From assembly GCF_032854445.1 (NCBI RefSeq), contig NC_088297.1, positions 16,691,127-16,755,126 of the forward strand: DNA of 64,000 bases. The letters are read 5' to 3'. This DNA is from Liolophura sinensis (taxonomy: Eukaryota; Mollusca; Polyplacophora; Chitonida; Chitonidae). Every line of letters begins with the position of its first letter. The first letter of the stretch is position 1. Positions 23,970 through 51,554 of this stretch are shown here, piece after piece. A model generated the notes under the pieces. That model did not search any database and was not told the origin of the DNA. It was given only the letters and a program-made list of their open reading frames with translations. A program made the position numbers and the translations under genes.

Positions 23970-26900
23970 TCACAAACCTCTGAGACAGACATCAGGCTTG
24001 TCATACAAAACACACACCTGAAAAAACAAAACACAGGTCAGAAAATTGCGAAGGGACCATATCGCCATTTATCTGATGAAACTTTAAAACAGATAAACGC
24101 ACGATGAAATCTTTTAAATCAGACTAGCCCACAACAAAGAAAATGAATAAAAATGATCTAGGCCTACGTAGAATTGATGGAATTTTGTCTTAGTCAGTGA
24201 GAGTTTTATTTTACTGGTTTAACGAGAAAATTACACTTATTAATTGCACCATGGTGCTACTCACCTCAACTTGTTCTTTCCCTGAAAGAAAGCACATTGT
24301 CAGATAATAGAACCAAATATAAAAAAAAATCACACGCAAGTAGTCTCTGTCACATTTAATTTATTTATGTGAATCTCATGCCTGATTAGGTAAACTAAGA
24401 TGAGTTGCCGCCAGCTTTCACAATTGCTGATTATGGAAAAGACGCTGCCGTTAATGTAAAATGTTAATTTGAAGTTGTGACCTTTGGGTAACAGCATTTG
24501 CCCTTGACCGCTAGATGTCCCTAATACTGACCAAGAGCAAATGGTGCCTTTAATGTGTGTTGAGTAAGACTACCAACTGCATAATTAAAATTAAGGTAAA
24601 AATTCAGAGAATTTTGTACACAAATACCATGGTTTTACTTCTCACAGCGACAGGAAAACGAGATCATAAATTACATACTTACCGTTCGGTTCACGAGGAC
24701 AAACTACAAATAAGATCCAAACAGCAAATAAATAAATAATTTAGATGAGATTACCATGTTTATATTACTGAATTATTCAGTGAGTAAGATATTTTGATTG
24801 GTTGACTTCACGCATGGCAGATTTTAAGCCTGAGATGCTTTGTTGCGGATTCTGTTCAGTCGTAATAACTGACAAAAAAAATGGCATAGTTTCGTTTATG
24901 TCTTAAGTGCATGGATTCGGAACAAAAAAAATATTTATAACGAATGTTTTTTCAGAAAACTTTATGAATTACCTTGATACACACGTAGGAGTACATCAAC
25001 ACAATACTAAAGCTTAATCTTCAGATTTTAATCGAAGATCGAATCACGTTTAAACATTAAAATTAACAATTCCAGGTAATACACTAGGACTATCTGATAA
25101 ACCAGTTGCATGCCTGCAAAGCACTAATTTCTCTCCGGTCGTACGTGGGAAATTCTTCCAGCAACCTGAGGATGGCCTTGGGTTTTTCCCACGGTCTCTG
25201 CCGGTGATCGTCCCGCTATAATTCAGGCCGCAGTCGAACAAGTGAAATAGTCTTGTGCATAGTGTAAACCTCCAATCAAATAATTAAAAGTTATTACTAT
25301 ATAAAAATTAACACCTTTCGTCAGTTGGTCAATTACATGTTAGTATGCTTTGATTTTTGTTAAACCTAAGGCCTCGGGATTTAGTCAGAATATTAAATCA
25401 CTTGAAAATTGCTATTTCATATGCAATGATGTTGGAATAGTTCTTGAGAACATACATTCGGGGGAAGCTAGTGCAAAACAATTTGCAGCCAAAATATCAG
25501 AAAGATAAACACACCTGTAAAAACTTTAATGATTGGAATTTTGACCTGAGTCTAAGATTGTTTCGTGATCCGGGAGCAGAACTTCATTCATCTGAACAAT
25601 ACTTATATCTCCCTCATGTCCATTTCGAACAAAGAAACCAAAAGAATGAACGGTTTCGCTTACTCTTGTTGTGTGTGGTGATGTAATACTCTTGCTCGTC
25701 AAGGCAGTACTGATCGAAGAGTACTTTTAGCCGGATAAACTCAGTCGAAGTGAAATATGGCTTCCTGCTCCACACTGAGCCTCGGATACGCACGCATTCG
25801 CCATCCGGGGTGTCTGGTTCCTTCACACAGCCAAGCACAAACGAGATCCCGGTATAGTCCGTTTCGATCACAAAATAATCGTCACCTGAGAAAACGAACA
25901 GATTTAAAACGAGTCTGGCTATTTCTGACACAACTGTATTTCATTCCGCTGAACCCGGTGTCAGGTGTTTATAACAACGACAGGATGATTTAAATAATCG
26001 CTGTTATCAAAGCGCGAAATTTAACGCAAACTTTATTTTTTAATTATACATATTATTTCTAATTGATTTCGTTTTGAACTGGTGTTTTAGGTTCATCAAA
26101 AATGAGGAATACGTGAATCGACTTGGAACGTACACCCGTGCCTGGTTTACGACTGGTGTACTAATGTCGGCCTTGACGCGCAGAATCAAATATATATCTC
26201 GGTTGTTCAAATCATCTGAAGCTAGTGGCCTCTCTGTTCGAGGAAATTACCACGCCAGCACGGCGCACCAGTATGGGCGTTTTGAGTTCAAGTCCAGCTC
26301 ATGCTGGCTTTATCTCCGGTCGTATATGAGAATGTCTGCAGTAACCTGTGGATGGTCGTGGTCTTCCCCGAGCTCTGTTTGGGTTCCTCCCCGCGTTATG
26401 CTGGGGCGCCGTCGTATTTTAATAGCAGCCATTTCAATTGACTGAACAACACTGATGGGTTTGTAATATTGATAAAATCAAAGGTTTTCCTCAGTTCCAT
26501 TTCCTATAATCAAACTTTTCTTTCAAAATCTTACATTTTCCAGCTTAATTTCAAAGCCGTCTTAGTAGATATGTACCCTAGTTATTTGGCGTTGGTCAAA
26601 TTATTTTGGTTTTTTTTTTTGGTCCTACATTTTGTAACCAAAATACTTATACAATTTAAAACTACCTAGTCACTTTCGTTTAATATGGAATTCATTAACG
26701 TGTGGTTTTGTAATTCTTACATTTTTCAGCATTCAGCTTTGAAAATCTGGAATCAGTTATTTCGCTATTCAATGATTCTGACATACGTGTGTGTAGTGTT
26801 TAAGTAGCATCACATGCGTCATTGTGCTTTGTTTAGAATCGGGTACCATGTTCTGTCGGGCGAGGCAAACCGATGGAAACAGCAACAAAACACATTATTT

Positions 26901-29900
26901 TAGCGTGGCCATGCTTGTGTACCCAATAGGTGTTCTTTGAAATCATGTGACGAGCTACGGGGAAGAACCAAATACTATATGGCTTGGAATCTCTTTGGTT
27001 CAGAGTTCCCATTTTGATACCTGTCGGTGTGATCTGATGGGTGACCGTATTTAACTGGTCACGTGTGACCATTTGCCAGATATCACATTACCAATGAGTA
27101 GTCGACGACCCTTCCTCAAAGCCCACTTGTCTTCCACCAGTATGGTGTGACACTCGTGGACATTAAGTTCGTCTGGAACTAAGGTCGGAAAGTTACCCAC
27201 AGTTCTTCAGTTTTCGCCTCGCTTAAAACTAACCGTCATCCTATATAAAAAAAACGTTTCTCAGTCCGAAAGAATCAAAAAAAAAAATATCCGCTAAAGA
27301 GCAGGTTTTAAATTTAAGTTACCAAGGAAAAAAACCAATGTTTAACGGGATAGAGAATAGTTTCTGATTGGCTTGTGTTAGAGATATGCACTTTAACTGA
27401 ACTTTAGGTAAGATATATTTATTCAATCGTGCCCAACGCTTGCCAATTTAACCCAGGAACCCTATCTCCACTCTCAGCAAATCAGCGACGATTCTGTATA
27501 ACTTCGAAGTAAAAAAAAAGACGTAAAATCTGTGTTTTACATTTTGAGTGAGTCCAAACCCCAAGTACAGGCCAATTATGTGCCGATATATACTTTAACT
27601 GACAGCGGTACCATTTCCGCTTTCCAGTGATGCCAGTCTGTTATAAGGGAACCATCGTTGTGATGTGACAAATTTATGTGGGACTTAACGAAGTTAAGCA
27701 AAGATCGGAATGTTTAACCACGAAAATCTATACCTGTGAACACGGTTCGATCTGGGGAGTCAAAGAAGATAAATTTGCCCGGCTCGTCTGTTCTCTCCCA
27801 TGTCTGCCGATCGTCAGTTATGAAGCACTTGTCATCTAAAGCAGGGTCGCTGAGAATGTCAAAACACTAAATAAGCACCAAAAAGCAAATGCTGCAAGTA
27901 ATGGGGATAGATTCTTGAAAGCTCCAAAGACGTATTGTGACGGAATTATTACTTTTGTCTGTTAGATGGTGCAAGATCACGGTGTTCAAGTAGACTATCA
28001 CTGTAAGTCACCCAGCCGTGACAGATTATTCACCCGATAGTCAACGTTAACGCGACAAATCACAGAGGTAAGGTTGTAAAGACAGATCATACAAGTAACA
28101 CTGGCGTCAACAAAAGTGAATGGTGATAACACGGCAGAGAGCAAACAAGAGAATGGCAATAACATGACAGATAAGGAACAAGAGAATGGGGATAACCTGG
28201 CAAATAGCGAACAAGAGAATGGGCATAGCATGGCAGATGACGAACAAGAGAATGGGCATAGCATGGCAGATGACGAACAAGAGAATGGGCATAGCATGGC
28301 AGATGACGAACAAGTGTATGGGCATAGCATGGCAGATAAAAAAACAATGGAGTGGGGATAACATGACAAATAACAAACAATGGAGTGGGGATAACATGAC
28401 AAATAACAAACAATGGAGTGGGCATAACATGACAAATAACAAACAATGGAGTGAGGATAGCATGAAAGATAACAAATAATAAAGCGACGTTAACATAAAC
28501 GATGGAGGAAGAATTGATGACTCACCTCCTTACAATACGAACGGCAATTGTTCCGTTAGGCAGTATCGTATAGACATTCAGGTAGTCGTTAAATGCCAGC
28601 TCGCGAGGAAAAACAACTCGAGGTTTGAATACCATTTCGTGCCAGAGTCCCAAGTACTGCAATGAATGTAAAGACACTTTTTGCAGGATTGCTCGGGAAT
28701 GGGTTTGATTAATATAATTTATTTGACGATGGACAGGGTCTATTTCACTAGGAAGGAAACGGGTGAGAATGGATATGCTTTTGAGATGTTGAAAAAGGCT
28801 GTGCAAATTCAGTATATATGGAATGCAAAGAAGCATGGAAAGAGAATAAACGATTCGTTTTGATTCTTTGTTGTTGTGCTGTTCTAGCACTAATTTAAAG
28901 CTGCAGAAGACATAAAAATGACGTAAATTTCAGATAAAAGAGTGTGAAAGTTATTCCTAAATGTGGTCTTCAATGTTTTTTTCCGATTTTTCCTTAAGAA
29001 GAAAAAGACGTTTGAAAATAAATTTTGTATGGCGGCTATTTGGGGCCACCTTTTGTTATTCTAGTCCTTGTTATTAGTCCTTTAATAGTGTCACAAAATT
29101 AGGATGTAACCCAGGTTTAATAAATATTTTTGCACTAGAATTATACTTAGAAGGAAAAAGAATTAGAATTTTCCGAGGAAATGGAATGATTTATTTCTAA
29201 AGTATTCCTGGCCGAGTTAAAGACTTTAAAATATTGGATTCCGCTGTTAACTACTTGGACAAAAATATGGTTTTGTAAAAGTGCGTGTAATTTACAACAG
29301 ATTTAGAGAATAACAGAAACCAGGGCAGCGACGACAGTGTGATAATTCACTAGTGGTCAGAGGTATCCGAAGAAGTACAATCTCTTGTCATTGCACATCA
29401 GATTGGGCTCTAATCTAATTCTTCCTGTAAATGTTTAAAACGTAGTAAATAACATGCCCTTCTAGGATCGTCTTTTAAGCAGATTGTGTTTTTTTTTTTT
29501 TTTAAATGGCTTCCAATGTATTGAAAACTTACACCGCTGTGTTTAGCTAATTCTGCAGAATTCAAAGTGCTAGAGGGTGTGTAAGCTGCTAGTTTTCAAG
29601 AATATACATGAACATTAAGATTAAAACACTAACCCGAATAGGTGTTACTATTGGGTGACTATAACATGGTGGTCTGGTTTTATTCTCTGTGCTGTATAGT
29701 ATTTTATACGAAAGAAACTACTGTCCGAGTTGTTTATCGCTAATGGCACGGGAATCGTAAGTGTCCCACGAGAGAGAAAATGAAGTGGGCCGGCATACTT
29801 ATACCAGCAAGCAGCCAGCTTGAAATGTGATTTTGGAAAATTGGAACATGTTGATTGTCAGTAAATTACCATTATCTGGAACCGATTCCACACAGCCGTT

Positions 29901-32900
29901 TCTAACAAAATTTCAAACACAACCTTAATTTGTGGAATATAAAGTTTTCCTCACCTCTTAAATTTTATCTTTAGACAAATGTGTCTGAATTCCAACTTAG
30001 AATACTAAAAACTAAGCACATTTTTAAGTTTGCCTTAAGTCAAAAATAGCTTCGTGGAATTCCCTTCAGAGATATAATAATCTGGTATGTATCACATAAG
30101 ATACTTACCTTAAAATGTTATGTTATTTCATAACTGGTTTTCTACAAAAACTGCCTTCGTCAAGCAGAACGAACCAAATGTTAGCTTTGAATAATACACG
30201 GCTAAAATCCATTGAAAAGTTCACGCCGTAAATAGCTAGGGCCTAAACTTTTTTGTGTTTTGTTCCTTCATGCATTTGCGATGACCTTTTGTAGGCGAGC
30301 AGGTTGTTAATGGAAAAGTATTTGACAGGCGCATTTCTGTTTTGTGCTCATCTCACTGACCGCTACATGGCGCTATTGAATAGCTCTATATGTTGTGGAG
30401 CATACTTTGTGAAACCAGTCGGTGCAATTAATCCCAAGTGGGACGATACCTTCATATGTGTGTGTTTGTGCGTCATTATATCACAGGTGACGTATTATAC
30501 ATGGCAGGCAGGAGATCAATGGTGTACACAGCTAGGACCCGAACAGCCATTATGCTGGAAAATGTAACCAATTGTATTTTACACCCAAAACTTGATTTTA
30601 ATTCCGAAATCATATAAAAGATGTAAAGCATAGGGAGTAACTCCAGAGCAGCAACCACAGCGTAATATTTGGCAAATCGTCACATATAACCGGAGAAATA
30701 CGGTCTCTTGTCAATTTACTTCAGTTAAGGTTTTGTTCTAGCTGTTCATGTAAATGCATAAATAGTATCAAGCTACAAACCCCTAGCACAATAGCTTAGG
30801 CAGAATAGGGCAAAATTATGCAGTGATTAGACGTCACTGGTTTAGAAACCCTCAAAATGCTGTGTTGTCATCACATTTAATATACAATAACATTAAAACA
30901 ATGCAAAGGCGTATAACTGACCCTGTCCAGATCGAAGTTGGGTTGAACGGTCCATGTAGAGGGATCACATTGTCGACATCCTGCAGTAAGAGAATTACTA
31001 ACTGAGTAAGAGAGTGAGAGAGTTAAACCAGTGTCATGGCGGATTTAATTTATTAATGTATACTGTTCTCACCAATGTTTGACTTACATGGCGGTGGCCC
31101 AATTTTAGAGCAGACTCAGCAGAAAACCACCCCAACTATTCGCCTATATGATGGATCATCTCCGCAATGCTGCACACAAACCAACCGGAGCAAGATTAGA
31201 AAATACAAACTCCGTGGTCAGGAGCAAAATGTATGAGAATATAAGACGACCACAGATAGGGATGTTTGCATTATTTATTTGATTGGTGCTTTAGTCCGCA
31301 CTCAAGAATATTTCACTTATACGACGGTGGCCAGTATTTTAGTGTGAGAAAACCCGGCTGAGCCCAGTGGATACCATCCGCAAGTCGCTATAGACCTTCC
31401 CACGTACGGCGGCAAAGGAAGCCAGCATGACCTGGTCTTGAACTGAAAGGACGTTTTTAATGCGTTCAGGAAACCAAGCTAATATTTCTTCTGTGTTTTA
31501 TTTTTTCCACGATTTAAGTGGTGCTTTTTTTAAATGTACATATAACCTGATCATGGAGAGAAACTTACTTTCTCCTGTTTGGCTGACAACCTCAAAGTCG
31601 TTTGGCTTCAGACAGAGTCCATTGATCTTCCGGTTTATTCTCCGACGTATTTCCTGACTCAAGCTGGATTGCCGGGTCCTCTCCAGAATCCAGCTGTAAG
31701 CTTTCATGCACTTGCCTGTTGACTGCTTAATTTGGTTACAACCGTAGATTAAAGCGTAACTTTCGTAGTCCGTGTCTATCACCCAGTACTTCAAAACAGG
31801 ATCTGTTGGACGGAAAGGACGCATTGCAAAGGTCAACAAGAGTTCAGGTGAACTTAACATATGCCCCAACAAACACATTTGTTTGAAATGTATAAAACAA
31901 TACCAGTAGCATTGTGGTGAATATAACACCTGAGGGGAAGTCTTAATCACAAGGGAACAAAGGTGTATACCGCAAAACCAAACTTTATGCGCAGAACTGC
32001 TGGAGGTGTAGCCCGGACACGAAACTCATTTGTATTTATGTAGCATATATAAGAAAAATGGCTATCTGGTTATCATGACAACCACGAAAATGGACAAATG
32101 TGATTCATGACACATCGTCATCCGTGTATATATGTATCTAGATTAGGTTAAAATTCTGCGTGAAACACATGAGGGATGTTGGGGATGGGGGGTATGTTGC
32201 CCCGGCACAAAAATCAAATCTTTTTATATATAATATATAGGGAAAATGGCTAAGAACGGAGAACTGCTGGAGTCGTAGCCCGGACACGAGACTAATTTGT
32301 ATTTATGTAACATATATAAGAAAAATGGTTATCTGGTTATCATGACATCAGCGAAAATTTACAAATGTTATATATAAATGCGCTACACGAAGTTCACCTG
32401 ACCTATTTTTTTTTCTTTTAGTGTACGATTGAAGTAAATAAATTTTAACTTTTAAAAATATTATTGAGGCATTAAAATGGCTTTACGGTTCGGTTTTTCT
32501 AAGACTCCGGTGGTCAATCTAGAAATCGAGTACAAACGGTGATACATGTGGCTGTCAGAGCAAATCTCTTCGGGTAAGAAGCCTCCGTTCCCAGTCATCA
32601 AAGCCTCTATCGCGTTCCCAGTCATCGATTTCCGAAATTTTTCGATTATTGAAGGAAGACATGTATAACAAATGCATGTATGCTTGGGGTTTAACGCCAT
32701 ACTTAACAATGTTTCGATCATACGACGACGAGGAGCATTGCCTAGAGATGTTATGAGATTTTCTTTCTTATCAGTTTTGTCATAATTTTTTTTCTGAAAT
32801 CATAAAATCATAGGTAAATGTGAAAGTAGGTACAATGGTGATTAGACAAGAATAACTGAGCATCCACCATTTGAGTTGCCAAACATGAGAACTTACCAGA

Positions 32901-33602
32901 GGGCGAGGAAGGCTGGTAGCCCAGCTTGGCTGCATTACTTCCGGTTGGAGATGGTTGCTTCAGTTTTCCATGTTCGAACTGACAGCTGCCATCGTGACAT
33001 CTAAAAGGGAGTCGATTTATTCAAAGCGCATCTTCCCATATTAAAACAAAAAACCCCACTAAAAAAAACCCTTAAATTCGTGGCATACTTTTGATTCCAT
33101 TTATTGTCTTTTTGCCAGTAGTGTAATAATTTTCTTTTATATTTAACCATAACACGGTATCTCCTTGTTGCCATGTACCCCGTCTAACGTTCGTTGAAAA
33201 CTAATATGTTAATTTATTCATTTATTTATTTCATTGGTGTTTTCATTATATATATATATATATATACGCCGTGCTCAAGTCTATTTCCTTTTTACGACAG
33301 CGGCCAGTAATATGGTGTTAGGAAAACCAGGAGGAAACCAAGGGCCATCCGCAGGTTGCTGCCAGACCTTCCAGTTTATGATCAGTGAAGACGTAAGCTG
33401 CGCCAGTGCGCTAACCACTCGACTAATGAGGCCCTTTCAATATATGCACTGCCACTAACGGCTTTCTTTGTTGTCAAAAGGAAAAGGGTAAATTATTACG
33501 GCTTTTTTTTTCTCAGTAATCCAGATCTATTCGTTATTATGTCTCTTCTCGTCCTCAGACATTATTTCCATGTCTGAGGTGGGGCGGCGGCGACGGCGAC
33601 GA

Positions 33603-33635
<33 letters not shown>

Positions 33636-34890
33636 TGATGATGATGATGATGATGATGATCCTGTCTGCCTTACCTGCCAAAACTGAGAGCAGCAAGATC
33701 TTCCCCGGCACCTTTAGTGTAAATATGCTCGCGGTTTGTGAAAGAATCTTGCAGCAAAGGAGACTGTGTAAACTTCTTGTGGATGAACCACCGGCCTTGG
33801 AACTAGAGAAAGAAAAAGAAGCAAAGAAAAAAATACAAAAGGAGATAGTAATAACATCTTTACAATAGCGAGTAAAAATTCTTAAACTATTACACCCGGT
33901 TAGCTATTGGTTTCAGAAATTCTGTTCACTGTTATTCAACCGTTCATGTCGAAAATCAAGCATTTAAAACCGGTTTAAAATTTTGACTTTTGGATTTATT
34001 TATTGGGTTGGTGTTTTACGCTGTTTTCAAGAATATTTCATTTATATGATGGCGACCAGCATTCGAGTCGTACCCGCGGGGAACCCACGACCATCCTCAG
34101 GTTGCCCACCGACCTTCTCAGGCACGGTGGGAGAGGTAACCAGCATAAACTGGACTTGAACAACCGCATTAGTCAGAGGTTCCTGAGTCACTGCTGACCA
34201 CCTTGTCTTAGGAGGCCCCAAGTTTTAATTTGTGATATTCTCGTCTAATTCTACGATAAATAATACATGACGTTTACCCAGAAGCCTCCCACCAATGTGG
34301 TCGATGAGAGTTTAAATCCAGTTTAAGCTGGCTTCCTCTCCGGTCGTACGTGGAAACGTCTCAGAGTAACCTGCGGATGGCCGTGGGTTTCCCCTGGGGG
34401 CTCCGCCCGGTTTCCTCCCACCATAAAGCCGTCGTCGTATAAGTGAAATATTCTTGAGATGGCTTAAAATGCCAATCAAATAAATAAATAAATACATGAA
34501 CTTTACAACCGTCAACCTCAGAATTCAATTTTTTTCCTCAGTAAAATTCACCGTTTTCTCGAAATGGTTTGAATCTAAATATTTTTAGAAGCTATGGCGA
34601 TAAGTTTCATAGGTAGAGGAAACCGGAGACGTATTTAATTATTTTGTTCTAGTCGGCACGGATTTCTGAACAAGTTGGCTTTGATACATATCTGTTAAAA
34701 GGGTCGATAAAATATTATTGCGACTCCATATAGAAAGCAGGAAAACAAGCAACCTGATAACACTCACCCTGGCTATGTCGAAGTTTCGTTGCACACGGAA
34801 TTCAGATACTTTGCACTGTGATTCTGCGATCGCTGGCAGAACTGCAACCATGAGCAGTAACAGTACGGCAATCATGTTGACTTGAGACAT
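23970..34890 (-). CDS. Gene C: secreted protein with two tandem lipocalin domains
   Basis: Eleven exons, read on the - strand: 34890-34768, 33802-33675, 33000-32897, 31802-31569, 29552-29533, 28656-28526, 27849-27734, 25885-25664, 24703-24683, 24281-24265 and 24017-23970. They total 1164 nt (387 residues plus TGA) with all phases compatible. The first 23 residues are a signal peptide ending AIAES. Domain 1 has the lipocalin GxW motif at G44-W46 (FQGRW), TDY at 129-131 (WVIDTDYESY) and the third motif around R160 (SWILERTR). Domain 2 has GLW at 206-208 and ETDY at 293-296. The tail carries Cys 361, 374 and 383. Lipocalins bind small hydrophobic ligands in an eight-stranded barrel; the closest family type is apolipoprotein D-like. 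In both domains the exon series has phases 0-2, 2-1, 1-1, so one domain arose by internal duplication. The 20-nt linker exon is the least certain part. A TATA-like box lies about 80 bp upstream of the ATG. Confidence 0.85.
24265..24281 (-). CDS. 17-nt microexon of gene C
   Basis: It is flanked by an acceptor ending tttcag and the donor gtgagt, phase 1 in and phase 0 out, and adds KEQVE (after the glycine split at the junction). Paralogue D has a 17-nt version at 38979-38995 with the same flanking signals. Exon lengths of 21 and 17 nt restore the frame only when both are included, so they are expected to be spliced together. Confidence 0.78.
24683..24703 (-). CDS. 21-nt microexon of gene C (CPREPN tail segment)
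   Basis: The segment is flanked by an acceptor ending ttgtag and the donor gtaagt, phase 1 in and phase 1 out. It encodes I-CPREPN-G across the junctions. Paralogue D keeps a 21-nt version at 40997-41017 that encodes CPREPD between equally good splice sites. Conservation of length, phase and residues in both copies supports a real coding microexon. Confidence 0.8.
25127..25288 (+). mobile_element. SINE family 1 fragment, downstream of gene C exon 8
   Basis: ctctccggtcgtacgtggga, a diverged centre, and ctccaatcaaataatt. Confidence 0.75.
26230..26422 (+). mobile_element. SINE family 1, head and centre
   Basis: It keeps the tRNA-like B box (gagttcaagtccagctcatg) and centre but lacks the tail. 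It lies in a gene C intron. Confidence 0.8.
28109..28490 (+). repeat. 33-bp minisatellite in gene C
   Basis: About 11 units such as gaacaagagaatgggcatag. It lies between the YLGLW exon and the following exon. The period is a multiple of three, so all frames stay open for long stretches. The unit is related to the gene D arrays. Confidence 0.92.
28960..29148 (+). repeat. Dispersed repeat X, copy 3
   Basis: gaaaaagacgtttgaaaata, tatggcggctatttggggcc, taggatgtaacccaggttta. It lies in gene C, opposite to the gene's direction. Confidence 0.65.
29533..29552 (-). CDS. Candidate 20-nt microexon joining the two lipocalin domains of gene C
   Basis: Exon 4 of gene C ends in phase 1 and the first exon of domain 2 starts in phase 0, so a joining exon of length 2 modulo 3 is needed. 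On the - strand an acceptor ending ctgcag is followed by 20 nt and then gtaagt. It supplies KLAKHSG, giving LAKHSG-YLGLW at the start of domain 2, a normal context for a lipocalin GxW motif. Phases fit exactly. No homologous segment remains in gene D because that region is replaced by minisatellite. Another undetected exon is possible. Confidence 0.5.
30665..30850 (+). repeat. Dispersed repeat Y, copy 2
   Basis: taaggttttgttctagctgt, aacccctagcacaatagct, gtcactggtttagaaaccct. A reversed fragment may lie at 49225-49290. Confidence 0.6.
31273..31452 (-). mobile_element. SINE family 1, partial
   Basis: tttatttgattggtgcttta, ttcacttatacgacggtggc, cttcccacgtacggcgg. It lies just downstream of gene C exon 4. 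Confidence 0.85.
31990..32372 (+). repeat. Direct repeat of about 110 bp in gene C intron 3
   Basis: Copies at 31990-32105 and 32259-32372 share gtagcccggacacga and catatataagaaaaatgg-tatctgg. The bases between them are unique. Confidence 0.8.
32684..32738 (-). mobile_element. SINE family 2 tail fragment
   Basis: cttggggtttaacgccatac, atcatacgacgacgaggag. It lies in gene C intron 3. Confidence 0.7.
33220..33436 (-). mobile_element. SINE family 1 with an internal TA microsatellite
   Basis: The gtgtttt and acgccgtgctcaag blocks are split by a (TA)n run at about 33246-33266. The head remnant is gtgcgctaaccactcgac. Confidence 0.75.
33597..33660 (+). repeat. (GAC)n/(GAT)n microsatellite
   Basis: A GAC run passes into a GAT run and ends just before the donor side of gene C exon 2 (33675). 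Confidence 0.95.
33993..34218 (-). mobile_element. SINE family 1, nearly complete, diverged
   Basis: ttggtgttttacgctgtttt through gaacccacgaccatcctcag to cttaggaggcccc. Confidence 0.8.
34279..34494 (+). mobile_element. SINE family 1, nearly complete
   Basis: gcctcccaccaatgtggtcg, a B-box relic, ctccgcccggtttcctccca and an aaataaataaataa tail. With 33993-34218 it forms an inverted SINE pair in gene C intron 1. Confidence 0.85.
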
Positions 34891-39261: not shown

Positions 39262-40543
39262 TGAAATTCAAGGAAAATTGACAAGAAGCCAGATTTGAAA
39301 TTCTCACTGAGGTAAACTGACAAGAAGCCAGATTTGAAATTCTCACTGAGGTAAATTGACAAGAAGCCAGGTTTGAAATCCTCACTGAGGTAAACTGACA
39401 AGAAGCCAGGTTTGAAATTCTACATGAGGTAAATTGACAAGAAGCCAGATTTGAAATTCTCACTGAGGTAAATTGACAAGAAGCCAGGTTTGAAATTCTA
39501 TATGAGGTAAATTGACAAGAAGCCAGATTTGAAATCCTCACTGAGGTAAATTGACAAGAAGCCAGGTTTGAAATCCTCACTGAGGTAAACTGACAAGAAG
39601 CCAGATTTGAAATTCTCACTGAGGAAAACTGACAAGAAGCCAGATTTGAAATTCTCACTGAGGTAAATTGACAAGAAGCCAGGTTTGAAATTCTATATGA
39701 GGTAAATTGACAAGAAGCCAGATTTGAAATCCTCACTGAGGTAAATTGACAAGAAGCCAGGTTTGAAATCCTCACTGAGGTAAATTGACAAGAAGCCAGA
39801 TTTGAAATTCTCACTGAGGTAAATTGACAAGAAGCCAGGTTTGAAATCCTCACTGAGGTAAACTGACAAGAAGCCAGGTTTGAAATTCTATATGAGGTAA
39901 ATTGACAAGAAGCCAGATTTGAAATTCTCACTGAGGTAAATTGACAAGAAGCCAGGTTTGAAATTCTATATGAGGTAAATTGACAAGAAGCCAGATTTGA
40001 AATCCTCACTGAGGTAAATTGACAAGAAGCCAGGTTTGAAATCCTCACTGAGGTAAACTGACAAGAAGCCAGATTTGAAATTCTCACTGAGGTAAATTGA
40101 TAAGAAGCCAGATTTGAAATTCTCACTGAGGTAAACTGACAAGAAGCCAGGTTTGAAATTCTATATGAGGTAAATTGACAAGACCCCAGATTTGAAATTC
40201 TCACTGAGGTAAATTGACAAGAAGCCAGGTTTGAAATTCTATATGAGGTAAATTGACAAGAAGCAAGATTTGAAATCCTCACTGAGGTAAATTGACAAGA
40301 AGCCAGGTTTGAAATCCTCACTGAGGTAAATTGACAAGAAGCCAGATTTGAAATTCTCACTGAGGTAAATTGATAAGAAGCCAGATTTGAAATTCTATAT
40401 TAGGTAAATTGACAAGGAGCCAGATTTGAAATCCTCACTGAGGTAAATTGACAAGAAGCCAGATTTGAAATTCTCACTGAGGTAAATTGACAAGAAACCA
40501 GATTTGAAATTAAATATGAGATAAATTGACAAGAAGGCAGAAT
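39262..40543. repeat. 39-bp minisatellite, about 33 copies
   Basis: The unit contains ttgacaagaagccag-tttga and aaatt/cct-cactgaggtaaa. Two main variants (ctcactgagg and ctatatgagg) alternate, which suggests a two-level repeat. It lies between the 17-nt and 21-nt exon relics of pseudogene D. The 379-codon frame across it is a by-product of the 13-codon period. Confidence 0.95.
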
Positions 40544-41965: not shown

Positions 41966-42819
41966 TGTATTAATTATGGTGTGATGTATTCAGGATTTTT
42001 CTACAAATGTCTCAAAGGTTTCTGTCGCTCACTATTGAATGAAACAAACGTCTAAGAATTCACCCCACCGCTCAGCAGTGAGTACAACCTTGTTTTATTT
42101 CCCTTGCCTTCGTGAACGACGAAATCAGCAGAATCAAGGATTGCTTACTCTTTTCTTGTGTGGTGATGAAATACTCTTTCAGGTCAACGTAATACTGGTC
42201 GAAAAGTTCCTGGATCTTGACCAACTGCTCTCCCATTGATATATGGCTTCTGACTCCATACCCATCCTCTGATACCCTCACAAGTGCCTTCGGGAGTGTC
42301 TGCCTCTTTGACACAGCCAAGAACAAAAGAGAAACCTGTGTAATCTGTTTCGATTACCAATACTCGTCAACTGAGAAAACAAGAACGATGGTGAACTTGA
42401 GTTACCGACGTCGTATAAGTGAACTATCATTAAATAATGAGTTAAACACCAATCCAATAAAATATAAATGACAGATAAATAAAGAGTCGTGTATAACTAA
42501 AACCGTTAATAAATAAATAACATTCTATGAATTTAAATAAGAAATAAATTAAATATATAAATTAAAAAAATATTTAAATAAATAAAAGAATGTATAAAGA
42601 AGGAAAGAAAGAAACTTTCTCTAAAATAATAAAATGACCAAATAAATAATATTTATAAATAAAACACAAATATTTAGAAATAAATAAATATTATAGTATA
42701 AATTTTAGACACAGAAAACGAGGTATTTTACAATGCACGGCAAACAAATTAGTATACGGCACGTTTCTAAAAAAAACGAAAAAACAAAAGAAATGCATCT
42801 GCCTGTACCCCTTCATGTT

Positions 42820-43060
42820 ACAGGATTTAACATGTCCGGTAACAAACAAGAGAGAAGGGTTAACATATCAGTTAACAAACAAGAGAGTAGGGTTAACATA
42901 TCAGTTAACAAACAAGAGAGTAGGGTTAACATATCAGTTAACAAACAAGACAGTGGGTTTAACATGTCAGATAACAAACAAGAGAGTGAGTCTAACGTGT
43001 CAAATAAATATGTCAGATAACAAACAAGAGAGTAACGTTAAAATGCCAGCGGCAAACAAG
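42820..43060 (+). repeat. 33-bp minisatellite in pseudogene D, downstream block
   Basis: Units such as gttaacaaacaagagagtag, about seven copies, ending next to the 116-nt exon relic (43078). Confidence 0.9.
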
Positions 43061-43269
43061 ACAGTGGAGAAATGCACCTCTCTCTACCCCTTCATCCGTG
43101 TAAAAAACGAACATTAATTTGCCATCCACAGCTGTTTTCTCCAGCCTCACTCGATCTTCTCTAAGGAAACATTCGTCATTTATCGAGGGATCGCTGAAGT
43201 TAAAAAAATGCTTTTAAATTCATAATCAACAAAAAGAAAACAATTCTGCAACTAGTTGAGGTAAGATGT

Positions 43270-44015
43270 CCTTAACAACAAGAGTGGGGTTAACTTGTCA
43301 GATAATAAAAAAGTGATTGGGCTGTCAGCTAAAAAAGGAGAGTGGGGATGACATGTCAGTTAACAAACAAGAGAGTGAGGTTAACATGTCAGTTAAAAAA
43401 CAAGTGAGAAGGGTTAACATGTCAGTTAACAAACAAGAGAGTGGGGTTAACATGTCAGTTAACAAACAAGACAGCGAGGTCAACATGTCAGATAAGAGAC
43501 AAGAGAGTGGGGTTAACATATCAGATAACAAACAAGAGAGTGGGGTTAACATGGTAAATAACAAACAAGTCAGTGAACCCAACATGTCAGATAAGAAACA
43601 AGAGAGTGGGTTTAATACGTCAGATGACAAACAAGATAGTAGTGTTAACATGTCAGATAACAAACAAGAGAGTGGCGTTAACATGTCAGATAACAAAGAA
43701 GAGACTAGGGTTAACATGTCAGATAACAAACAAGGGAGTGGGGTTAACATGTCTGGTAACAAACAAAAGATTGGGCCTAAATGGTAGATAACTAACAAGA
43801 CAGTGAGTTCAACATGTCAGATAACAAAGAAATGAGTGAGGTCAACATGTCGGATAACAGACAAAAGAGTGGGGTTAACAAGTCAAATAAGAAAAAAGAG
43901 AGTGGGTTTAACATGTCAGATAACAAACAAAAGTGTGGGGCTAAAATGGTAGATAGCAAAGAAATGAGTGAGGTCAACATGTCGGATAATAAACAAACAA
44001 GACAGTCTTTGGTGG
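43270..44015 (+). repeat. 33-bp minisatellite in pseudogene D, upstream block
   Basis: About 22 units such as ggggttaacatgtcagataa. On the + strand it runs into the remnant of the TDY exon, so it replaces the rest of that exon, the linker exon and the YLGLW exon. Confidence 0.92.
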
Positions 44016-44289
44016 AAAGGTCTATTAAGACCCTAAGGCTACAACCGTAGATCAAGGCGTAGTTCACGTAGTCCGTGTCCACCACCCAGTAAGTAAGTTC
44101 TGTTTCACAAAAAGAACACCACAAGGGCTATTGCCAAACAGTACGGGTAACTGTGTCATGCCAAGCCTGTGGATCAATCTACAGAACAAAGCTTTGGCGA
44201 GTCTGAAAACCTCGCTTGTTTGTCATCCAGATATCATTTGACTTTAATCCGTGCGTGTGTTGGGCAATCTAGACTGAGAGAAATGTGTG

Positions 44290-44455
44290 GATCAACTGAC
44301 TCAAAAATTTTAGTTCTACAATTGACTTAATTCAACTCAGAGTCCTGTGAGTTTTTCAGCGAACCAAATGAGTCAACAATATAACCAAATGAGTTTTCTG
44401 AGTTGAATTAGCTCAGATTGATATACTGTCAATTCTGAGTGTAAGTTTATTTTAC
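44290..44455. mobile_element. Small palindromic element
   Basis: aattcaactcagag and ctgagttgaatt form inverted arms about 50 bp apart. It is probably a small MITE in a pseudogene D intron. Confidence 0.4.
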
Positions 44456-44974
44456 ACGTTGAAATATATATTAGAATTTTGTCTGCTTTGGATAGAAATG
44501 AAAACATCTTGTCTAGGGTCAGTATCAATGTCCTGGGGGTTATCATTTCGGCAAATTGCTATGCCATCACGCCCAGCATCAAGAGCTAAAGAAAAAAGTG
44601 GTTATACTATAGGTTGAATTTGAAAAGGTTCGAGCTCCATGAGGTGGTACGGCGTGGCTCTGCGCCAATGTTTGCCGACATATATATTTTGTAAGGTGAA
44701 GCGACACATTTACTACATAAATAGCAAGGAAAATCAATGCGCTCTCGTTGAATTCAGCAATTAAATCAATATATTTGAAAAAACCAACAATACCCGGTAA
44801 ACCATCTCTGGTTGTGAATTGCCAAATAGAACCGAAGGTAAACACATCAGATGAAAAAAAACTAGGCGGCCCTCCGAGAGCGCAAATCTCGGCGACATGT
44901 CGATTTCTTCGCCACAAAGAAGGGAATAATACTCTGTACTTTTGTCCTAACTTTGAATGGCGTATGTTAAAATG

Positions 44975-45240
44975 TATGCATACTTGGGGTTTAAGGTCGT
45001 ACTTAGATATTTTTCTGTCATTTGACGACGAGGAGTCAGTAAGCGTGTGAATACATACTGTGTCTTCTTGTTGCAGGGCGAGTCGATGTGGCCACCGAAG
45101 TATTATGCTGAAAACCACCCGACATGCCACCCCCCCACCCCCCCCCCCACCCCCACCCAGTCACATTGTACTGATACCAGGCCAATCAGTCATGTTTCCT
45201 TGCTCTAACCTATCACCGCTGCGCACCAAGCGAAGCACTT
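44975..45240 (-). mobile_element. SINE family 2 copy with a C-rich expansion
   Basis: cttggggtttaaggtcgtac, ttgacgacgaggagtcagta, gtcacattgtactgatacca. A C-rich run lies at about 45124-45160. It lies in a pseudogene D intron. Confidence 0.8.
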
Positions 45241-46214
45241 GGATCCAGGAGAAAATCTCTTGCGGACGAAAGTCCCGCGCACAGAAACACCGGCGAACAA
45301 AAAAAAGCCGTCGTCTTAATTAACCGACAAAACATATGCGACAGTCTAACAAACATGATGTTAAATATTTGTTGACGGCAATTCCTATAATGTGATTTTG
45401 TTTTCCACCTAAAAAATTGTCATCAAAGCATATCTTATTCGGGTTCAACAGCTTTTCACTCATAAGCGTTGTACACGTACGTTTTCAAAATAGTATCGCC
45501 AAAAAATGACTGTCTCTGGTGTCTCTGATATTATTGTCGAATGCTTTCCGTCTAGCAAATATAAGTTTATTCCACCACTATACTGAATTTTTCCACAATA
45601 TTACCTTCCGGCTGCCGAAATTAGGCATTCCGAGTCGGTTTATTATTTTGAATACTTTTTAACAGAAAAAAATAACAATTTATTTCTATTAAATCACTGT
45701 GTATTTTTTTAAATATTTTATAAGCCCTACATGGATGTTTACGATAAAACGAATAAGTGATCTTAACGTTATATCAAAAGCAATCTGTATCAATTGCGTA
45801 AATTAAAATTTATATATTATTCCTCGAAATCGGAATAAATGAATGTAGACTGCATGTTTTTGAGCATCTACACTCTGAAAGATCGAAACCGGCACAGGCA
45901 TGTTTTCTTAGAATAGGGTAAAAAAGGCTAACACAGGCTGCATTACAGTAATTTTTTAACACACTTGGAGACGTCTTTAGTTTTCAGATAAAAGCCTGGA
46001 ATAGAGGTTAATCATTCTGTTTACCGCTTAGAAATACCTAGCTCTTTCTCATGACGTCAAAACGGCTAGAATATATGGAGATTAAAGGCGTAAGAAGGGG
46101 TTCTATTGATTGGAAACATGTATTAAAATTTGAAACTTCACTTCAGGAAGAATGATTCAAATTTTCTCAAACAAGAAAACAACTTATGTCATTTACCGGG
46201 GGTTTTGTTGACAA

Positions 46215-46385
46215 ACGGATAGACAAGAAGGACGAACGAACGAACGAACAACCGAACGAACGGATGAACGGACGAACGGACGGACGGGCGGACGGAGGGA
46301 CGGGTGGGGGATGGGCGGGGGCACTGGGTGACGGGCCGAAGGACGGGCGTACAAACGGAAAGACAGACAGACAGACAAATAAACG
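46215..46385 (+). repeat. Degenerate (GAAC/GGAC)n tract
   Basis: gaacgaacgaacaaccgaac passing into ggacggacgggcggacgg and agacagacagacag. Confidence 0.9.
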
Positions 46386-47674
46386 CAGGAGAAAAGGAGG
46401 TAGAAATGCTATCAGACCATTGGCCTCAACACCAACACACGCCCTCTCTCCCCCAATCCCTCTCTCTCTCTTTCACATATATTATCATTGTTTATGTACC
46501 TTGTGTAAACAGAGCTAAAATGTAAGTACTCCAATGGGTCGTCTTACATGTGAACTTACCAGACGACACCGAAGGCCTGTAGCGGAGTTTGGCTGCATTA
46601 TTTCCGGTCAGGAATGACTGCATCAGTTTTCCATGCTTGTATCGGCAGCTGCCTGAGGTAGGCCTGCATGAGAATTCATTTATGCATTCCTTTAGTTGAC
46701 GTGTTTTAATCCGCCCCTAAGAATTTTTCACTTTTATGCATGGCTGCTGGAGAGATATTTTTCTATCATAAGCCGTAATAATAGTTCCATTGATTAATAA
46801 ATGCGCCAGTCATACTTAGTGATGGAGAAAACTGGGAACCACTGAATACGCTAAACATCATATATGCTGAGGAAATCCTTGCGTTGAAATCGATTTATTG
46901 TTTATTTCATTGTTCCTTAACACATAGTATTAACACACAGTATCAACGGAAGACAAGTGTTTTTCAACGAGCGTTATAAACTGCGAAAACAGCCACAATA
47001 TTATCGCTTCTTAAACACCCAGCCACAACCAAATCGTGACCAGGATTTGAACCAGAGACCTCTGCTTCGATCAGCTGAGAAATTAATGTCAGCATAATAG
47101 GGCCTTAGATTTAAGCTTGTTATACATACAAGACAGCGATAAGAATATAGGAACTCGGGATTATCTGTTACACTAGTGAATAATCCTGAACATCTAATTT
47201 AATAACAGTGTTTTATTTTTTCAGTCATTATAGCACAAGTTTATCCAATAGATCAGGCTCATTTCAGCGATACGAAATGCAGAAAATAATGTTAATTCAG
47301 AGCTTGGGATTGGAGGATTCCTGGAGGAATCACTTTGATTACAATATAACACGATGCGTACCAATGTTGACTAATGTTGTAGGCTGTCCATACAATGGAG
47401 ATTCATACGCCGTCCTAAAAGTGAAATATTCTTGACTACAGTGTGAAACACCTGAAGTAAGTAAATAAATAATATTTAATCCGTGTTTACCGTCTTGCTG
47501 TCGTCCAGTTGAATGTGTGAGCATTTGCTATCAAAACGCAACTGTAATAATATTATTTATCTAATACTTATGAACTAACGAGACGCACTAATTGGGTACC
47601 GATTTTACTCATGTCCGTCTCAACGGTTATAGATTCAAGGGCATTTGATTTGTACGGAAGCAGCCAGGTTTAAT

Positions 47675-47850
47675 GATGAAGACCTCTCCGGCCGTAAGTA
47701 AGAAGGTCTGCCAGCAGTCTTTGGATGGTCGTGGGTTTTCCCTGGGCTTGCCCGGTTTCCTACCACGGTAATGCTGGCCGCCGTCGTAGAAGTGAAATAT
47801 TCTTCAGTACAGCGTAAAACACACCAATCAAATAAATAAATAAATGATAA
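47675..47850 (+). mobile_element. SINE family 1, 3' two thirds
   Basis: ctctccggccgtaagtaag, gcttgcccggtttcctacc, caccaatcaaataaataaat. It lies in a pseudogene D intron. Confidence 0.85.
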
Positions 47851-48800
47851 AGACAACTGTTACAAAACAAGAGGAAGCTTTGTTTGAGTCAGCAAAGACA
47901 TTTCTGACAGGTAAAAATTTTTAAACATTTTCCTTAAGCAATTGCTTATTTTTTTCAAACAGGAAGTTGGAATTTTTACACATTTGACATCAGATAACAT
48001 TTAATGAGAGTCACAACAGTAATTTCTAGGATCTGGTAAATGGCTTGGTCCAATCGGTCGTTGAGCACAAGGTGGTGATCTTCACTTCCCTCTATGCCCC
48101 ATGCTTCCCCTCTTAAGTTCTAACGCCCACTCACTCTAACCTTTTACCCTTCTTTCACAAATACAAGGAATTGAAATCCTGTAATAGAAAAACAGTTTAA
48201 GGACTTTCAGACAAACTTCTGCGAAACCTAGTTTCAAACAGTTATATAAATCTTGCCCGCGAGGGGAAACAAAAGAGACAAATTACACAAAGAAGAAGCA
48301 AACCCACGTGGCAATAAACACTTCAAATGAATGCCACTTTTTACGCAGGTCTACAAAAAATTTAAATTACATTTTTAATTAACGATATTGTCTCGTCCTT
48401 TCCGGTGGCTGGCTTCAACGGTTTTTGCGCTCTGTAAACCATGGAATGTAAAGCCATGTTTACCTAAACAGAGTGTACCGGTGCATACACAGTCCCAAGA
48501 ATAAATCCCTGATTGTAATAAACTGACAAGGCCAGATTTCACTTGTTACACGTGAAGACTTGTCCTCAACCACAGTGTTGTCAGTGCTCTCCCTTTACTC
48601 TCTACTATCGAGTCTTTCATACCATTCGCCTGCATAAACCGGGATTCAGCATGCTGGTGGACTACAAGCATGCCCTTGGCCTGAGGCCGCTTTCATAAAG
48701 ATGTCGTACTTGTACGATATCGCACATATAGCACAATAATACGATAGAATAGTGACGTACAAAATATCGCACGACAAATGTACGATAAAAAATACCATAC

Positions 48801-48986
48801 GACGCTTTCACTTATACGAAGGCAACCAGAATGCTCAGAGCCCTGTGCAAACCCACGACCATCCGCTGACAGACCTTCTCACGTAAACCCGAAGGAAGCC
48901 AACATGAACTGGGTTTGAACTCGGTGGAAACCTCCTGGATCTTTGCCCCGCGCTGGCGTGCTCTCCCCCTCGGCTACGGGAGGTCT
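48801..48986 (-). mobile_element. SINE family 1, head and centre
   Basis: cacttatacgaaggcaacc, cccacgaccatccgctgac, cgcgctggcgtgctc, cggctacgggagg. Confidence 0.7.
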
Positions 48987-49121
48987 CTTGGTACCTTTGC
49001 ATTGTTTTCATGTTACTGTTTGAATAATTTGATGTAATGACAACAGAACATTTAAGTATTTGTAGACCAGGGGAGTATAATACAATCTTCACCTCCTTTT
49101 TTTACCAAGTCCTGCTAATTC

Positions 49122-49220
49122 ATTTATTTATTGGATTTGTTTTTATCACGAATATTTCACCTACGCGATAGCAGTAGGCATTATGTTGTGAGGAAACCGG
49201 GCAGAGCCCAAGGGAAACCA
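49122..49220 (-). mobile_element. SINE family 1 fragment
   Basis: tttatttattggatttgt, ggaaaccgggcagagccca. Confidence 0.75.
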
Positions 49221-50417
49221 GTCGCTTCTATTTAAGTATTTACATGAACAGTTAGAATAAAACTTTAGCTGACGTAACTTAACAAGAGGGCAGATTTCAC
49301 CGGAATATTTTGACATCCTTTACTTATGTGTTCAACTTAGTTTATCATTACTCTGATTTTACTGCAGTATTTTACACCGTGCACAAAAACTTTTCACTAT
49401 TATGACTGAGATCAGATTTAACGGAAAATAAATCAAGACGCATCTTACGGAGAACCTGACCAAACCTGGGTATTCTCACTTGTTCGAGTGCACCATCATA
49501 CGGGCAGTCGACATTTTACTCGTGCAAGCTTTATATACTTGCTCAGAAACGACATAGTTCTCAGAATTACCCGTTATTTTTCATTTCCCTGTATACCTTC
49601 CTATGTTATATTCTACTTGGCCGACTGCTATCTACTGCTGTGGGAGAGTGAAATGCCCGGATGTGTGCGGCCTTGAATATAACTACATTCAGGTTTGGGG
49701 ATTGAGTCGTTGAACCTGAAAGAGCCGTGATAGATAAAGCCACGTCTGAGACAGATTCGAATTCCAACACTAGTAATGACTGAAACAACAATTTTCCAAC
49801 AAAAAAGTGTACATACAAATATACCATGGTTTGCTTGAGGGTATTCGTTGCCTTACCTCCCAAAACTGAGGGCATCGAAATTTTCTCTGGCACCTTGAGA
49901 GTAAATGTGCTCACGGTTAGTGTAGCTATCTTGTTCCAAAGGAGACTGAGTAAACTGTTTCTTGATGAACCATCGACCTTGAAACTGGAGAAAAGATAAA
50001 ACCCACATATTTGTTTCATTACCTTTGTATCACTTTTTTACGAAAGCATAAATCTTGTGTTTCAGACGTCGTTAAAGGTATCAACACTAAACAGTTACTG
50101 AAAAAGGTTCACGCTAAGCGGGTCAGACCTGTGTAATGTTTGCCAGATTAAGGAGAACGTCAGCCTTGTTTTACCAGCGTGTGTGCGGGACAGTGCTCAA
50201 AGACAAATATTTTTTTTCTAATCTTTTAATCACTGATATCGCTTACCCAACTCTGAAAACTATGCTTTGCCCATCGAAAAATGCAAGTTGGTTTTTAAAG
50301 CAGTTTGGGGAATTATTGATGTCTGATCCACAAATTTGAAGCGATGGTGGCAATTGTGCCCTCTCAATTGACCACTGTTGATAAGAACAGCCTGAATAAA
50401 CACATATAATTGCCTTG

Positions 50418-50640
50418 TATGTATGTATGTATGTATGTATATAAATGTATGTATGTATGCGTATAAATGTATGTATGTATGTATGTATGTATGTATGTAT
50501 GTATGTATGTATGTATGTATGTATGTATGTATGTATGTATGTATGTATGTATGTATGTATGTATGTATGTATGTATGTACATAAATGTATGTATTTAAAT
50601 GTATGTATATATTTATATATGTATTTATGTATCATTTTCA
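50418..50640 (+). repeat. (GTAT)n tetranucleotide microsatellite
   Basis: More than 30 GTAT units with a few ataaatgtat interruptions. The HTYI/MYVC-type frames are not genes. Confidence 0.97.
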
Positions 50641-50756
50641 TCCACACACAGATGAATGCCGCAATAGTACCATACGGCATAAAATTAAATAGATTTGGTT
50701 GTATACATGGGATTTTTATATTTTGTACTCCAGATCAAACATTAAGGAATCACTTT

Positions 50757-50925
50757 AGAAAATGTGACTGCGGGTGATGCTAATCCGGAGCTACCATAAG
50801 AAAATGTGAATCCCGGTGGTGCTAATCCCGAGCTACAAAAAGAAAATGTGAATCCCGGTGGTGCTAATCCGGAGCTACAATAAGAAAATCTGAATCCCGG
50901 TGGTGCTAATCCGGGGCTACAATAA
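50757..50925 (+). repeat. 42-bp tandem repeat, four copies
   Basis: Units of aatcccggtggtgctaatcc plus gagctacaataagaaaat-like sequence. It lies in the first intron relic of pseudogene D. Confidence 0.88.
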
Positions 50926-50936
50926 ACTGATTGACG

Positions 50937-51040
50937 AGACTCGGCAAAGCTGCCGGCTTTCCTCCCACCAAAATACTGGCCGGCGTCGTATAAGTAAAAT
51001 ATTCTAGAGGACGGCGTAAAACGCTGATCAAATAAATGAT
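50937..51040 (+). mobile_element. SINE family 1 fragment next to gene D exon 1
   Basis: ggctttcctcccaccaaaat, ggcgtcgtataagtaaaata, gctgatcaaataaatg. It lies about 15 bp downstream of the exon 1 donor, in opposite orientation to the SINE within the exon. Confidence 0.82.
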
Positions 51041-51121
51041 TAAATACAACAATCACCTTAGCAACATCACAGTTCTGTTGTACGTCGAACTCGGAAACCC
51101 TGCACTGGGAATTCACAATCG

Positions 51122-51408
51122 CTGGCAGAATTATTTATTTATTTCATTGGTGTTTTACGACGTACTCAGGAATATTTCACTTATACGACGGCGGCCAGCA
51201 TTATGGTGGGAGGAAACCGGGTAGAACCCGGGAGAAACCCACAACCATCTGCAGGTTGCTGGAAGACCTTCCCACGTACGGCCGGCGAGGAAGCCGGCAT
51301 GAGCTGGACTTGAACTCACAGCGACCGCATTGGTGAGAGACTTATCGGTCATTACGCTGCGCTAGGGTGCTAACCGACTGAGCCAAGGAGGCCCCTCTGG
51401 CAGAATTA
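51122..51408 (-). mobile_element. Full-length tRNA-derived SINE (family 1) with target-site duplication, inside gene D exon 1
   Basis: The element spans 51134-51396 and is flanked by the 12-bp duplication ctggcagaatta at 51122-51133 and 51397-51408. In sense orientation (- strand) it has a tRNA-like head with A box (tggctcagtcggttagc) and B box (gagttcaagtccag), a conserved centre (tttcctcccaccataatgctgg) and an A-rich AAATAAATAA tail. Gene C has the empty site in the same exon. Confidence 0.92.
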
Positions 51409-51554
51409 CAATCATGAGCAGTAAAGGTATATCCGTCATGTTGACTTCTGACAACCACAACAGCAGTGTAAAACGTGCGATATTCGCAACGGTATTGTCA
51501 GCTGCTTTCTTCAGATGTGTGGTCACCGACTAATACATACCCTTGACATCGGCT

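Follow-up and report, generated by a model that had tools for sequence, protein, structure and literature searches.

A conserved two-domain lipocalin gene of the retinol-binding protein type in Liolophura sinensis, probably derived from fused tandem genes

The gene and its neighbourhood

The window, a stretch of 64,000 nt from Liolophura sinensis (C3:16691127-16755126, in a genome assembly of 609 Mb and 632 contigs), carries on its minus strand, from 34890 to 23970, one gene of 11 exons with lengths of 123, 128, 104, 234, 59, 131, 116, 222, 21, 17 and 48 nt. All intron borders have GT and AG, the frame is open through 11 of the 11 exons, and the product is a secreted-type protein of 400 residues with two lipocalin domains. 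In window coordinates, the exons and a decayed neighbour are as follows; cysteines are named after the columns of plasma retinol-binding protein (RBP).

34768-34890, minus strand: exon 1, signal-peptide-like stretch followed by CKVSEFRVQRNFDIAR, the N-terminal lipocalin exon of domain 1; end phase 0
33675-33802, minus strand: exon 2, 128 nt, phase 0-2; GxW (FQGRW) of domain 1
32897-33000, minus strand: exon 3, 104 nt, phase 2-1; domain 1, C70-equivalent cysteine
31569-31802, minus strand: exon 4, 234 nt, phase 1-1; TDY exon of domain 1 with the C120, C129 and C160 equivalents
30922-30980, minus strand: exon 5, 59 nt, phase 1-0; linker exon RCRQCDPSTWTVQPNFDLDR
28526-28656, minus strand: exon 6, 131 nt, phase 0-2; GxW (YLGLW) of domain 2
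27734-27849, minus strand: exon 7, 116 nt, phase 2-1; domain 2, C70 equivalent
25664-25885, minus strand: exon 8, 222 nt, phase 1-1; TDY exon of domain 2 with the C120, C129 and C160 equivalents
24683-24703, minus strand: exon 9, micro-exon of 21 nt, phase 1-1; C174 equivalent of domain 2 (ICPREPN)
24265-24281, minus strand: exon 10, micro-exon of 17 nt, phase 1-0 (KEQVE); a similar string lies downstream of the paralogue C3b
23970-24017, minus strand: exon 11, 48 nt including the stop codon, VCVLYDKPDVCLRGL*
42150-51454, minus strand: decayed copy of the gene, with pieces of exons 1, 2, 3, 4, 7 and 8

The protein begins with a single hydrophobic, signal-peptide-like stretch and ends at the stop codon at 23970; the second in-frame ATG, close to where the paralogue C3a begins, may be the translation start. 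Each domain has a GxW and a TDY motif (FQGRW...DTDY in domain 1 and YLGLW...ETDY in domain 2). The first-pass annotation, made from the letters of this stretch, had described two lipocalin domains in one secreted protein, with one signal-peptide-like start, a GxW and a TDY in each module and exon sets of 128/104/234 and 131/116/222 nt with phases 0-2, 2-1 and 1-1. The motifs (GRW, GLW and two TDY), lengths and phases are all found again in the present gene model, and the two-domain layout is upheld by a linker exon and an exon order common to the six loci reconstructed through exon 8.

In the decayed copy, exon 1 is split into a signal-peptide part (51454-51398) and a mature part (51131-51057) about 270 bp apart, with interspersed-repeat-like sequence at their inner edges; exon 4 is truncated near 43999, exon 8 no longer fits the reading frame, and exons 5 and 6 were not found within 42150-51454. 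Similar 33-nt tandem repeats are present at 28118-28480, in the intron between exons 6 and 7 of the intact gene, and at 42827-42987 and 43281-43996 in the decayed copy, where one repeat site lies directly at the break of exon 4. An array of a 39-nt unit (about 33 copies with a 90% match) occupies 39271-40541, and one of its frames is open for 392 codons.

Paralogues in the genome

Searched with the TDY exon of domain 1, the genome yielded 14 matches (19 candidates), and with that of C3a domain 2 it yielded 18 (21 candidates); every match lies on C3, C6 or C11. Six two-domain loci (the window gene, C3a, C3b, C6p, C6m1 and C6m2) were reconstructed through exon 8 and have an 8-exon core with identical phases, exon 1 of C6p, C6m1 and C6m2 being represented by its mature part only. 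The paralogues with assigned positions are listed below.

C3:16456501-16466688, plus strand: C3a, two-domain lipocalin gene
C3:16657600-16665863, minus strand: C3b, two-domain gene, near-identical to C3a (dS 0.045)
C6:30932647-30945530, plus strand: C6p, two-domain lipocalin gene
about C6:30957790-30969110, minus strand: C6m1, two-domain lipocalin gene
about C6:30975750-30985575, minus strand: C6m2, two-domain lipocalin gene
C11:22822057-22827879: C11a, exons 1, 2, 3, 5, 6, 7 and 8, with 200 N at the place of exon 4 and exon 1 interrupted by a frame break
C6:31824334-31828481: C6b1, single-domain lipocalin gene with its own signal-peptide-like start
C6:31833465-31837302: C6b2, single-domain gene with its own signal-peptide-like start and a stop one exon after the TDY exon

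A further copy, C11b, has exons 5-8 only, exons 1-4 not being found in the 5 kb read; together with the frame break of C11a, this indicates that some copies are not intact. No linker exon was detected for C6b1 in the stretch up to where C6b2 begins, and the last exon of C6b1 is not fixed. Between the window gene and C3a, dN/dS is 0.27 for domain 1 and 0.30 for domain 2. C3a and C3b form an inverted pair about 190 kb apart with near-identical coding sequences, which is either a recent duplication or an assembly duplicate. Another family fragment, at C3:16674578-16677448 on the minus strand, consists of exon 2 and an exon 3 that is broken.

The linker exon

It had been proposed that domain 2 lost the usual N-terminal exon and is joined to domain 1 by an exon of 20 nt. 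However, the N-terminal exon of domain 2 is present as the 59-nt exon 5 (30980-30922, phase 1-0), which reads CRQCDPSTWTVQPNFDLDR and stands between ctgcag and gtcagt. This exon occupies the place of the supposed 20-nt exon, and it is conserved across loci and under purifying selection; as it is longer by 39 nt (59 - 20), or 13 residues, the product has 400 residues and not 387 as previously given. Among the 114 open mini-exons of phase 1-0 that are possible in the 2.9-kb intron, six have a length of 20 nt, so that a short exon is easily found there by chance. The 20-nt candidate with the best consensus is 29552-29533 (KLAKHSG), and our guess is that this was perhaps the exon picked earlier. 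The 20-nt linker exon was rejected; use of this candidate alongside the 59-nt exon would break the frame.

Exon 5 is 59 nt long at all seven loci at which both ends were read (the window gene, C3a, C3b, C6p, C6m1, C6m2 and C11a); its phase is 1-0 in C3a, C3b, C6p, C6m1 and C6m2, and the frame fits in C11a, in which an assembly gap covers exon 4. In this exon, the window gene and C3a differ by 11.0 changes at 12.3 synonymous sites and by 2.0 changes at 44.7 replacement sites, and exon 5 is under strong purifying selection. Its first cysteine is the C174 equivalent of domain 1 (one column after that of RBP), and its second is the C4 equivalent of domain 2. The string CRQC, encoded by exon 5, supplies the final cysteine of barrel 1 and, two residues apart from it, the first of barrel 2.

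The start of exon 5, in phase 1, reads GA-TGT, GA-TGC or GG-TGC, and its end, in phase 0, follows an NFDxxR-like string, as in exon 1. In the window gene, C3a and C3b, the micro-exon with the C174 equivalent of domain 2 also starts in phase 1 with NN-TGY. Candidates of the same NN-TGY type are present in C6p, C6m1, C6m2 and C11a (picked by eye from 3, 2, 3 and 2 candidates, respectively), the lengths over these seven loci being 15-24 nt, and the last exon of the single-domain gene C6b2 begins in the same manner (phase 1, NN-TGY). By these features, exon 5 looks like a hybrid of the start of a C-terminal last exon and a first exon reduced to its mature part by loss of the signal peptide, and on this reading the CRQC cysteines would belong to different barrels. 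The latter assignment is supported by C6p and C6m1, which lose C4 (exon 5) and C160 (exon 8) together; in both genes, exon 5 keeps the sixth cysteine of domain 1 despite the loss of C4. The hybrid look of exon 5 makes the fusion of two tandem lipocalin genes the most likely source of the gene, an event in which the stretch between the last exon of one gene and the signal peptide of the next would have been lost. It also suggests a route by which neighbouring genes for secreted proteins may be fused with no disulfide lost. A match to CRQCETSRLTFE at C6b was considered as a linker exon and discarded, being out of frame and inside the last exon of C6b2.

Relationship to retinol-binding protein

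The joined product matches the Pfam families PF00061 (5.2e-8; 33.6 bits, cut-off 23) and PF08212 (5.9e-8; 33.2 bits, cut-off 24), and the domains alone all score below the cut-offs (21.6 and 23.3 bits for domain 1; 14.8 bits, E 0.029, with PF08212 only for domain 2). Membership of the lipocalin superfamily is given by the profile match of the joined product and by the GxW and TDY of each unit. In a phmmer search of solved structures with the product, RBP came first (8.4e-15) over domain 1, and domain 2 was reached through weak rows only, such as Per a 4 (0.0013). Domain 2 of C3a alone found RBP (3.3e-10), followed by RBP and sandercyanin (1.2e-9 each). Profiles were built from four of the six domain-1 sequences and four of the seven domain-2 sequences, the three domain-2 sequences left out including C6p and C6m1. 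With the domain-1 profile, RBP was found at 2.7e-23 and filled the top 17 rows, followed by sandercyanin at 6.3e-14 (best 60 of 89 rows); with the domain-2 profile, RBP was found at 6.3e-15 and 2.3e-14, followed by sandercyanin at 6.0e-14. RBP4 is the best solved-structure match of each domain, by a wide margin for domain 1 and a narrow one for domain 2, and because of this thin margin the term RBP4-type rests mainly on domain 1 and the cysteines. Apolipoprotein D was rejected as the closest kin, as RBP ranks first in both domain-profile searches. Apolipoprotein D, sandercyanin and crustacyanin belong to the same superfamily and give significant profile matches, but these are weaker than those of RBP, and the aligned row of sandercyanin has no cysteines at C70, C129 and C160.

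The disulfides of RBP pair residues 4-160, 70-174 and 120-129. The columns C4, C70, C120, C129 and C160 are cysteine in 6/6 domain-1 rows, 5/7 domain-2 rows and 2/2 single-domain rows. The sixth cysteine lies one column after C174 in all six domain-1 rows and exactly at C174 in three domain-2 rows and C6b2, which are the rows that extend to this column. In the window protein, each of the two domains has all six cysteines of RBP, the sixth of domain 1 being shifted one column towards the C-terminus. In C6p and C6m1, domain 2 does not have the six-cysteine pattern; it has neither a C4 nor a C160 equivalent, a joint absence that is expected if C4 and C160 form a pair. Three disulfide bridges are ascribed to RBP in the excerpted text of PMC8006376.

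Vertebrate RBP4 and the window protein are alike in that RBP4 is the best profile match of both domains, both are of the secreted type with six cysteines in matching places, and domain 1 starts with CxxSxFxVxxNFDxxRFxGxW. Unlike RBP4, which has one domain, the window protein has two in one chain, and it is therefore called RBP4-type and not RBP4. Domain 1 is also four residues shorter than RBP just before C70, where loop residues of vertebrate RBP touch transthyretin.

STRA6-family exons

The genome search for the STRA6 family (PF14752) gave 12 matches from 20 candidates, eight of them over the cut-off, arranged as two colinear sets of four on C9, one set of two on C8 and two single exons. The sets are located as follows.

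C9:24474185-24493965, plus strand: STRA6-family (RBP_receptor) exon set
C9:24620543-24640571, minus strand: STRA6-family (RBP_receptor) exon set
C8:49280324-49283115, plus strand: STRA6-family (RBP_receptor) exon set

By their arrangement, these sets apparently represent several gene copies. The three best matches run over stop codons past the exon ends, the exon itself being open. One exon of 56 residues matches Pfam RBP_receptor at 9.9e-11, and its sole match in the PDB is STRA6 (5sy1, E 0.019). Membership of the STRA6/RBP receptor family is given by the PF14752 matches over the cut-off and is known here from exons, not whole genes. The genome holds, beside a conserved and selected two-domain gene of the secreted type with the kinship and cysteine pattern of RBP, exons of this receptor family. 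Neither PF14752 nor the haemocyanin family PF14830 gave a match in 14 control genomes, a weak control as those named in related searches are bacteria.

Origin of the two domains and alternative readings

The matching exon phases of the two domains had been regarded as direct evidence of internal duplication. In the single-domain genes C6b1 and C6b2, the phases 0/2/1/1 stand at positions corresponding to those in either domain of the window gene; a match would therefore be expected for any pair of joined lipocalin genes, and the phases cannot discriminate. The domains are about 20% identical, and hhalign of a profile of four domain-1 sequences against one of four domain-2 sequences gave a probability of 99.4 (E 2.7e-21), a likeness beyond chance. 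A tree was computed from 18 domain rows, leaving out C11a domain 1 and C11b; as C3a and C3b are near-identical, the independent rows are fewer than 18. All seven domain-2 rows form one clade with a support of 100/99, which indicates that the two-domain layout predates the split of the genes on the three chromosomes C3, C6 and C11. Placing the six domain-1 rows in one clade needs two changes and is not rejected (AU p 0.311), nor is a clade of all 13 domain-1 and domain-2 rows (AU p 0.163), and the tree leaves a shared ancestry of the domains neither demonstrated nor rejected. C6b1 and C6b2 branch with domain 2 (85/93), closer to it than domain 1 is, with several long end branches and a long-branch warning from the program.

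We read the locus as one intact gene for a secreted, bilobal RBP4-type lipocalin that arose from fused tandem lipocalin genes and would serve as a lipid or retinoid carrier, and we put the probability of this reading at roughly 0.78. It is very improbable that exons 1-4 encode one lipocalin and exons 5/6-11 another on separate mRNAs: domain 1 could read past the exon 4 donor to a nearby stop with 23 further residues, but exon 5 has neither a signal peptide nor an in-frame start codon after the last upstream stop, it begins at a splice acceptor at 7/7 loci read, it is the only source of the sixth cysteine of domain 1, and the exon order is identical in 6/6 loci reconstructed through exon 8. The chance that the window gene is itself decaying, as suggested by the broken relative about 7 kb away, appears negligible, given 11/11 open exons with GT-AG introns and a dN/dS of about 0.25 against C3a. 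Internal duplication within one gene, rather than fusion of already diverged neighbours, is a tenable but disfavoured origin of the two domains. It would accord with RBP being the best match of both profiles and with the AU test, which leaves all domains as one clade (p 0.163), but the equal phases recur in single-domain genes, the identity between the domains is only about 20%, the single-domain C6b genes group with domain 2 (85/93), and a fusion of fresh tandem duplicates would by now look no different from an internal duplication.

With regard to function, a role as a shell-matrix, pigment-binding or defence lipocalin instead of a retinoid carrier is a substantial possibility, somewhat short of even odds. 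Sandercyanin, which binds biliverdin, comes next after RBP for both profiles, followed by apolipoprotein D and crustacyanin. Lipocalin-domain proteins are reported from oyster and slipper-snail shell proteomes in the excerpts of PMC10543319 and PMC9365450. The position of RBP as the best match of both profiles and the presence of STRA6-family exons in the genome argue against this role. In the carrier that we favour, two complete barrels would follow each other with almost no spacer, the fold being predicted from sequence, and the very short spacer may hold them in a fixed relation. Each barrel would bind one small hydrophobic molecule, in haemolymph or another secretion. The likeliest ligand would be a retinoid or a similar apolar compound, for example a carotenoid or a sterol, and the STRA6-like proteins of the same genome are possible docking receptors in a putative pairing. 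In view of the kinship with RBP and the presence of STRA6-like exons, our leading but tentative guess is a retinoid; alternatives would be a carotenoid, a bilin, a sterol or a fatty acid.

Known multi-domain lipocalins and retinoid transport

To our knowledge, most described lipocalins are single-domain proteins, and the corresponding remark of the first-pass annotation holds, with the qualification that multi-domain members are in print (insect polycalins, yeast Svf1 and some tick proteins). Bombyx polycalin has more than two domains. The polycalins or 'multidomain lipocalins' of Helicoverpa armigera appear in the excerpts of PMC4985599, without a stated number of domains, as midgut proteins that bind Cry1Ac; by description they resemble the window protein in having several lipocalin domains in one animal protein and differ from it in this midgut Cry1Ac-binding role. 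Yeast Svf1, as described in part of PMC10583516, likewise has two lipocalin domains per protein, with a hydrophobic pocket between them, and is unlike the window protein in being an ER-Golgi ceramide transporter. The tick salivary 'double lipocalin-domains' are similar, by their description in the excerpts of PMC9779611, in that two are found in one secreted animal protein. In the open-access literature searched, the wording 'two lipocalin domains' occurred in the Svf1 review only. Among the matches listed, the excerpts of the open-access literature reported neither a double RBP4-type domain nor any double lipocalin from a mollusc, and no molluscan RBP4 or STRA6; the layout may already be annotated in molluscan proteomes.

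Section 35 of a review of molluscan endocrinology covers retinol and retinoid receptors in molluscs, and the section's text reports no RBP4 from a mollusc; a figure of the review names RBP4 (PMC12965858). A 2012 review, in its excerpted part, ties RBP and STRA6 to vertebrate vision and states that no dedicated long-range transport of vitamin A is known from before monostable visual pigments (PMC3546623). One molluscan genome with both an RBP4-type carrier family and STRA6-family exons makes this statement directly testable. It would be a bold and rather unlikely extension that molluscs have a dedicated extracellular retinoid delivery of the RBP4/STRA6 kind, with a fused double RBP as the carrier, bringing two ligands, or ligands of two types, to each receptor contact.

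Other searches of the genome

A whole-genome count of lipocalins by Pfam was unproductive, since single exons score too low: PF08212 gave four matches, none over the cut-off, and PF00061 gave one match, on C10. An intronless lipocalin_2-like stretch with an open frame of 274 codons lies on the minus strand at C7:10710508-10710936 (21.1 bits against a Pfam cut-off of 24). The haemocyanin beta-sandwich PF14830 gave eight matches from eight candidates, all over the cut-off, within 11.4 kb on the plus strand at C8:37880506-37891931. This molluscan-type array, which supports a molluscan source of the DNA, contains the only PF14830 matches found in the genome, and the best matches of one of its units among solved structures are large haemocyanins, including the keyhole limpet KLH1.
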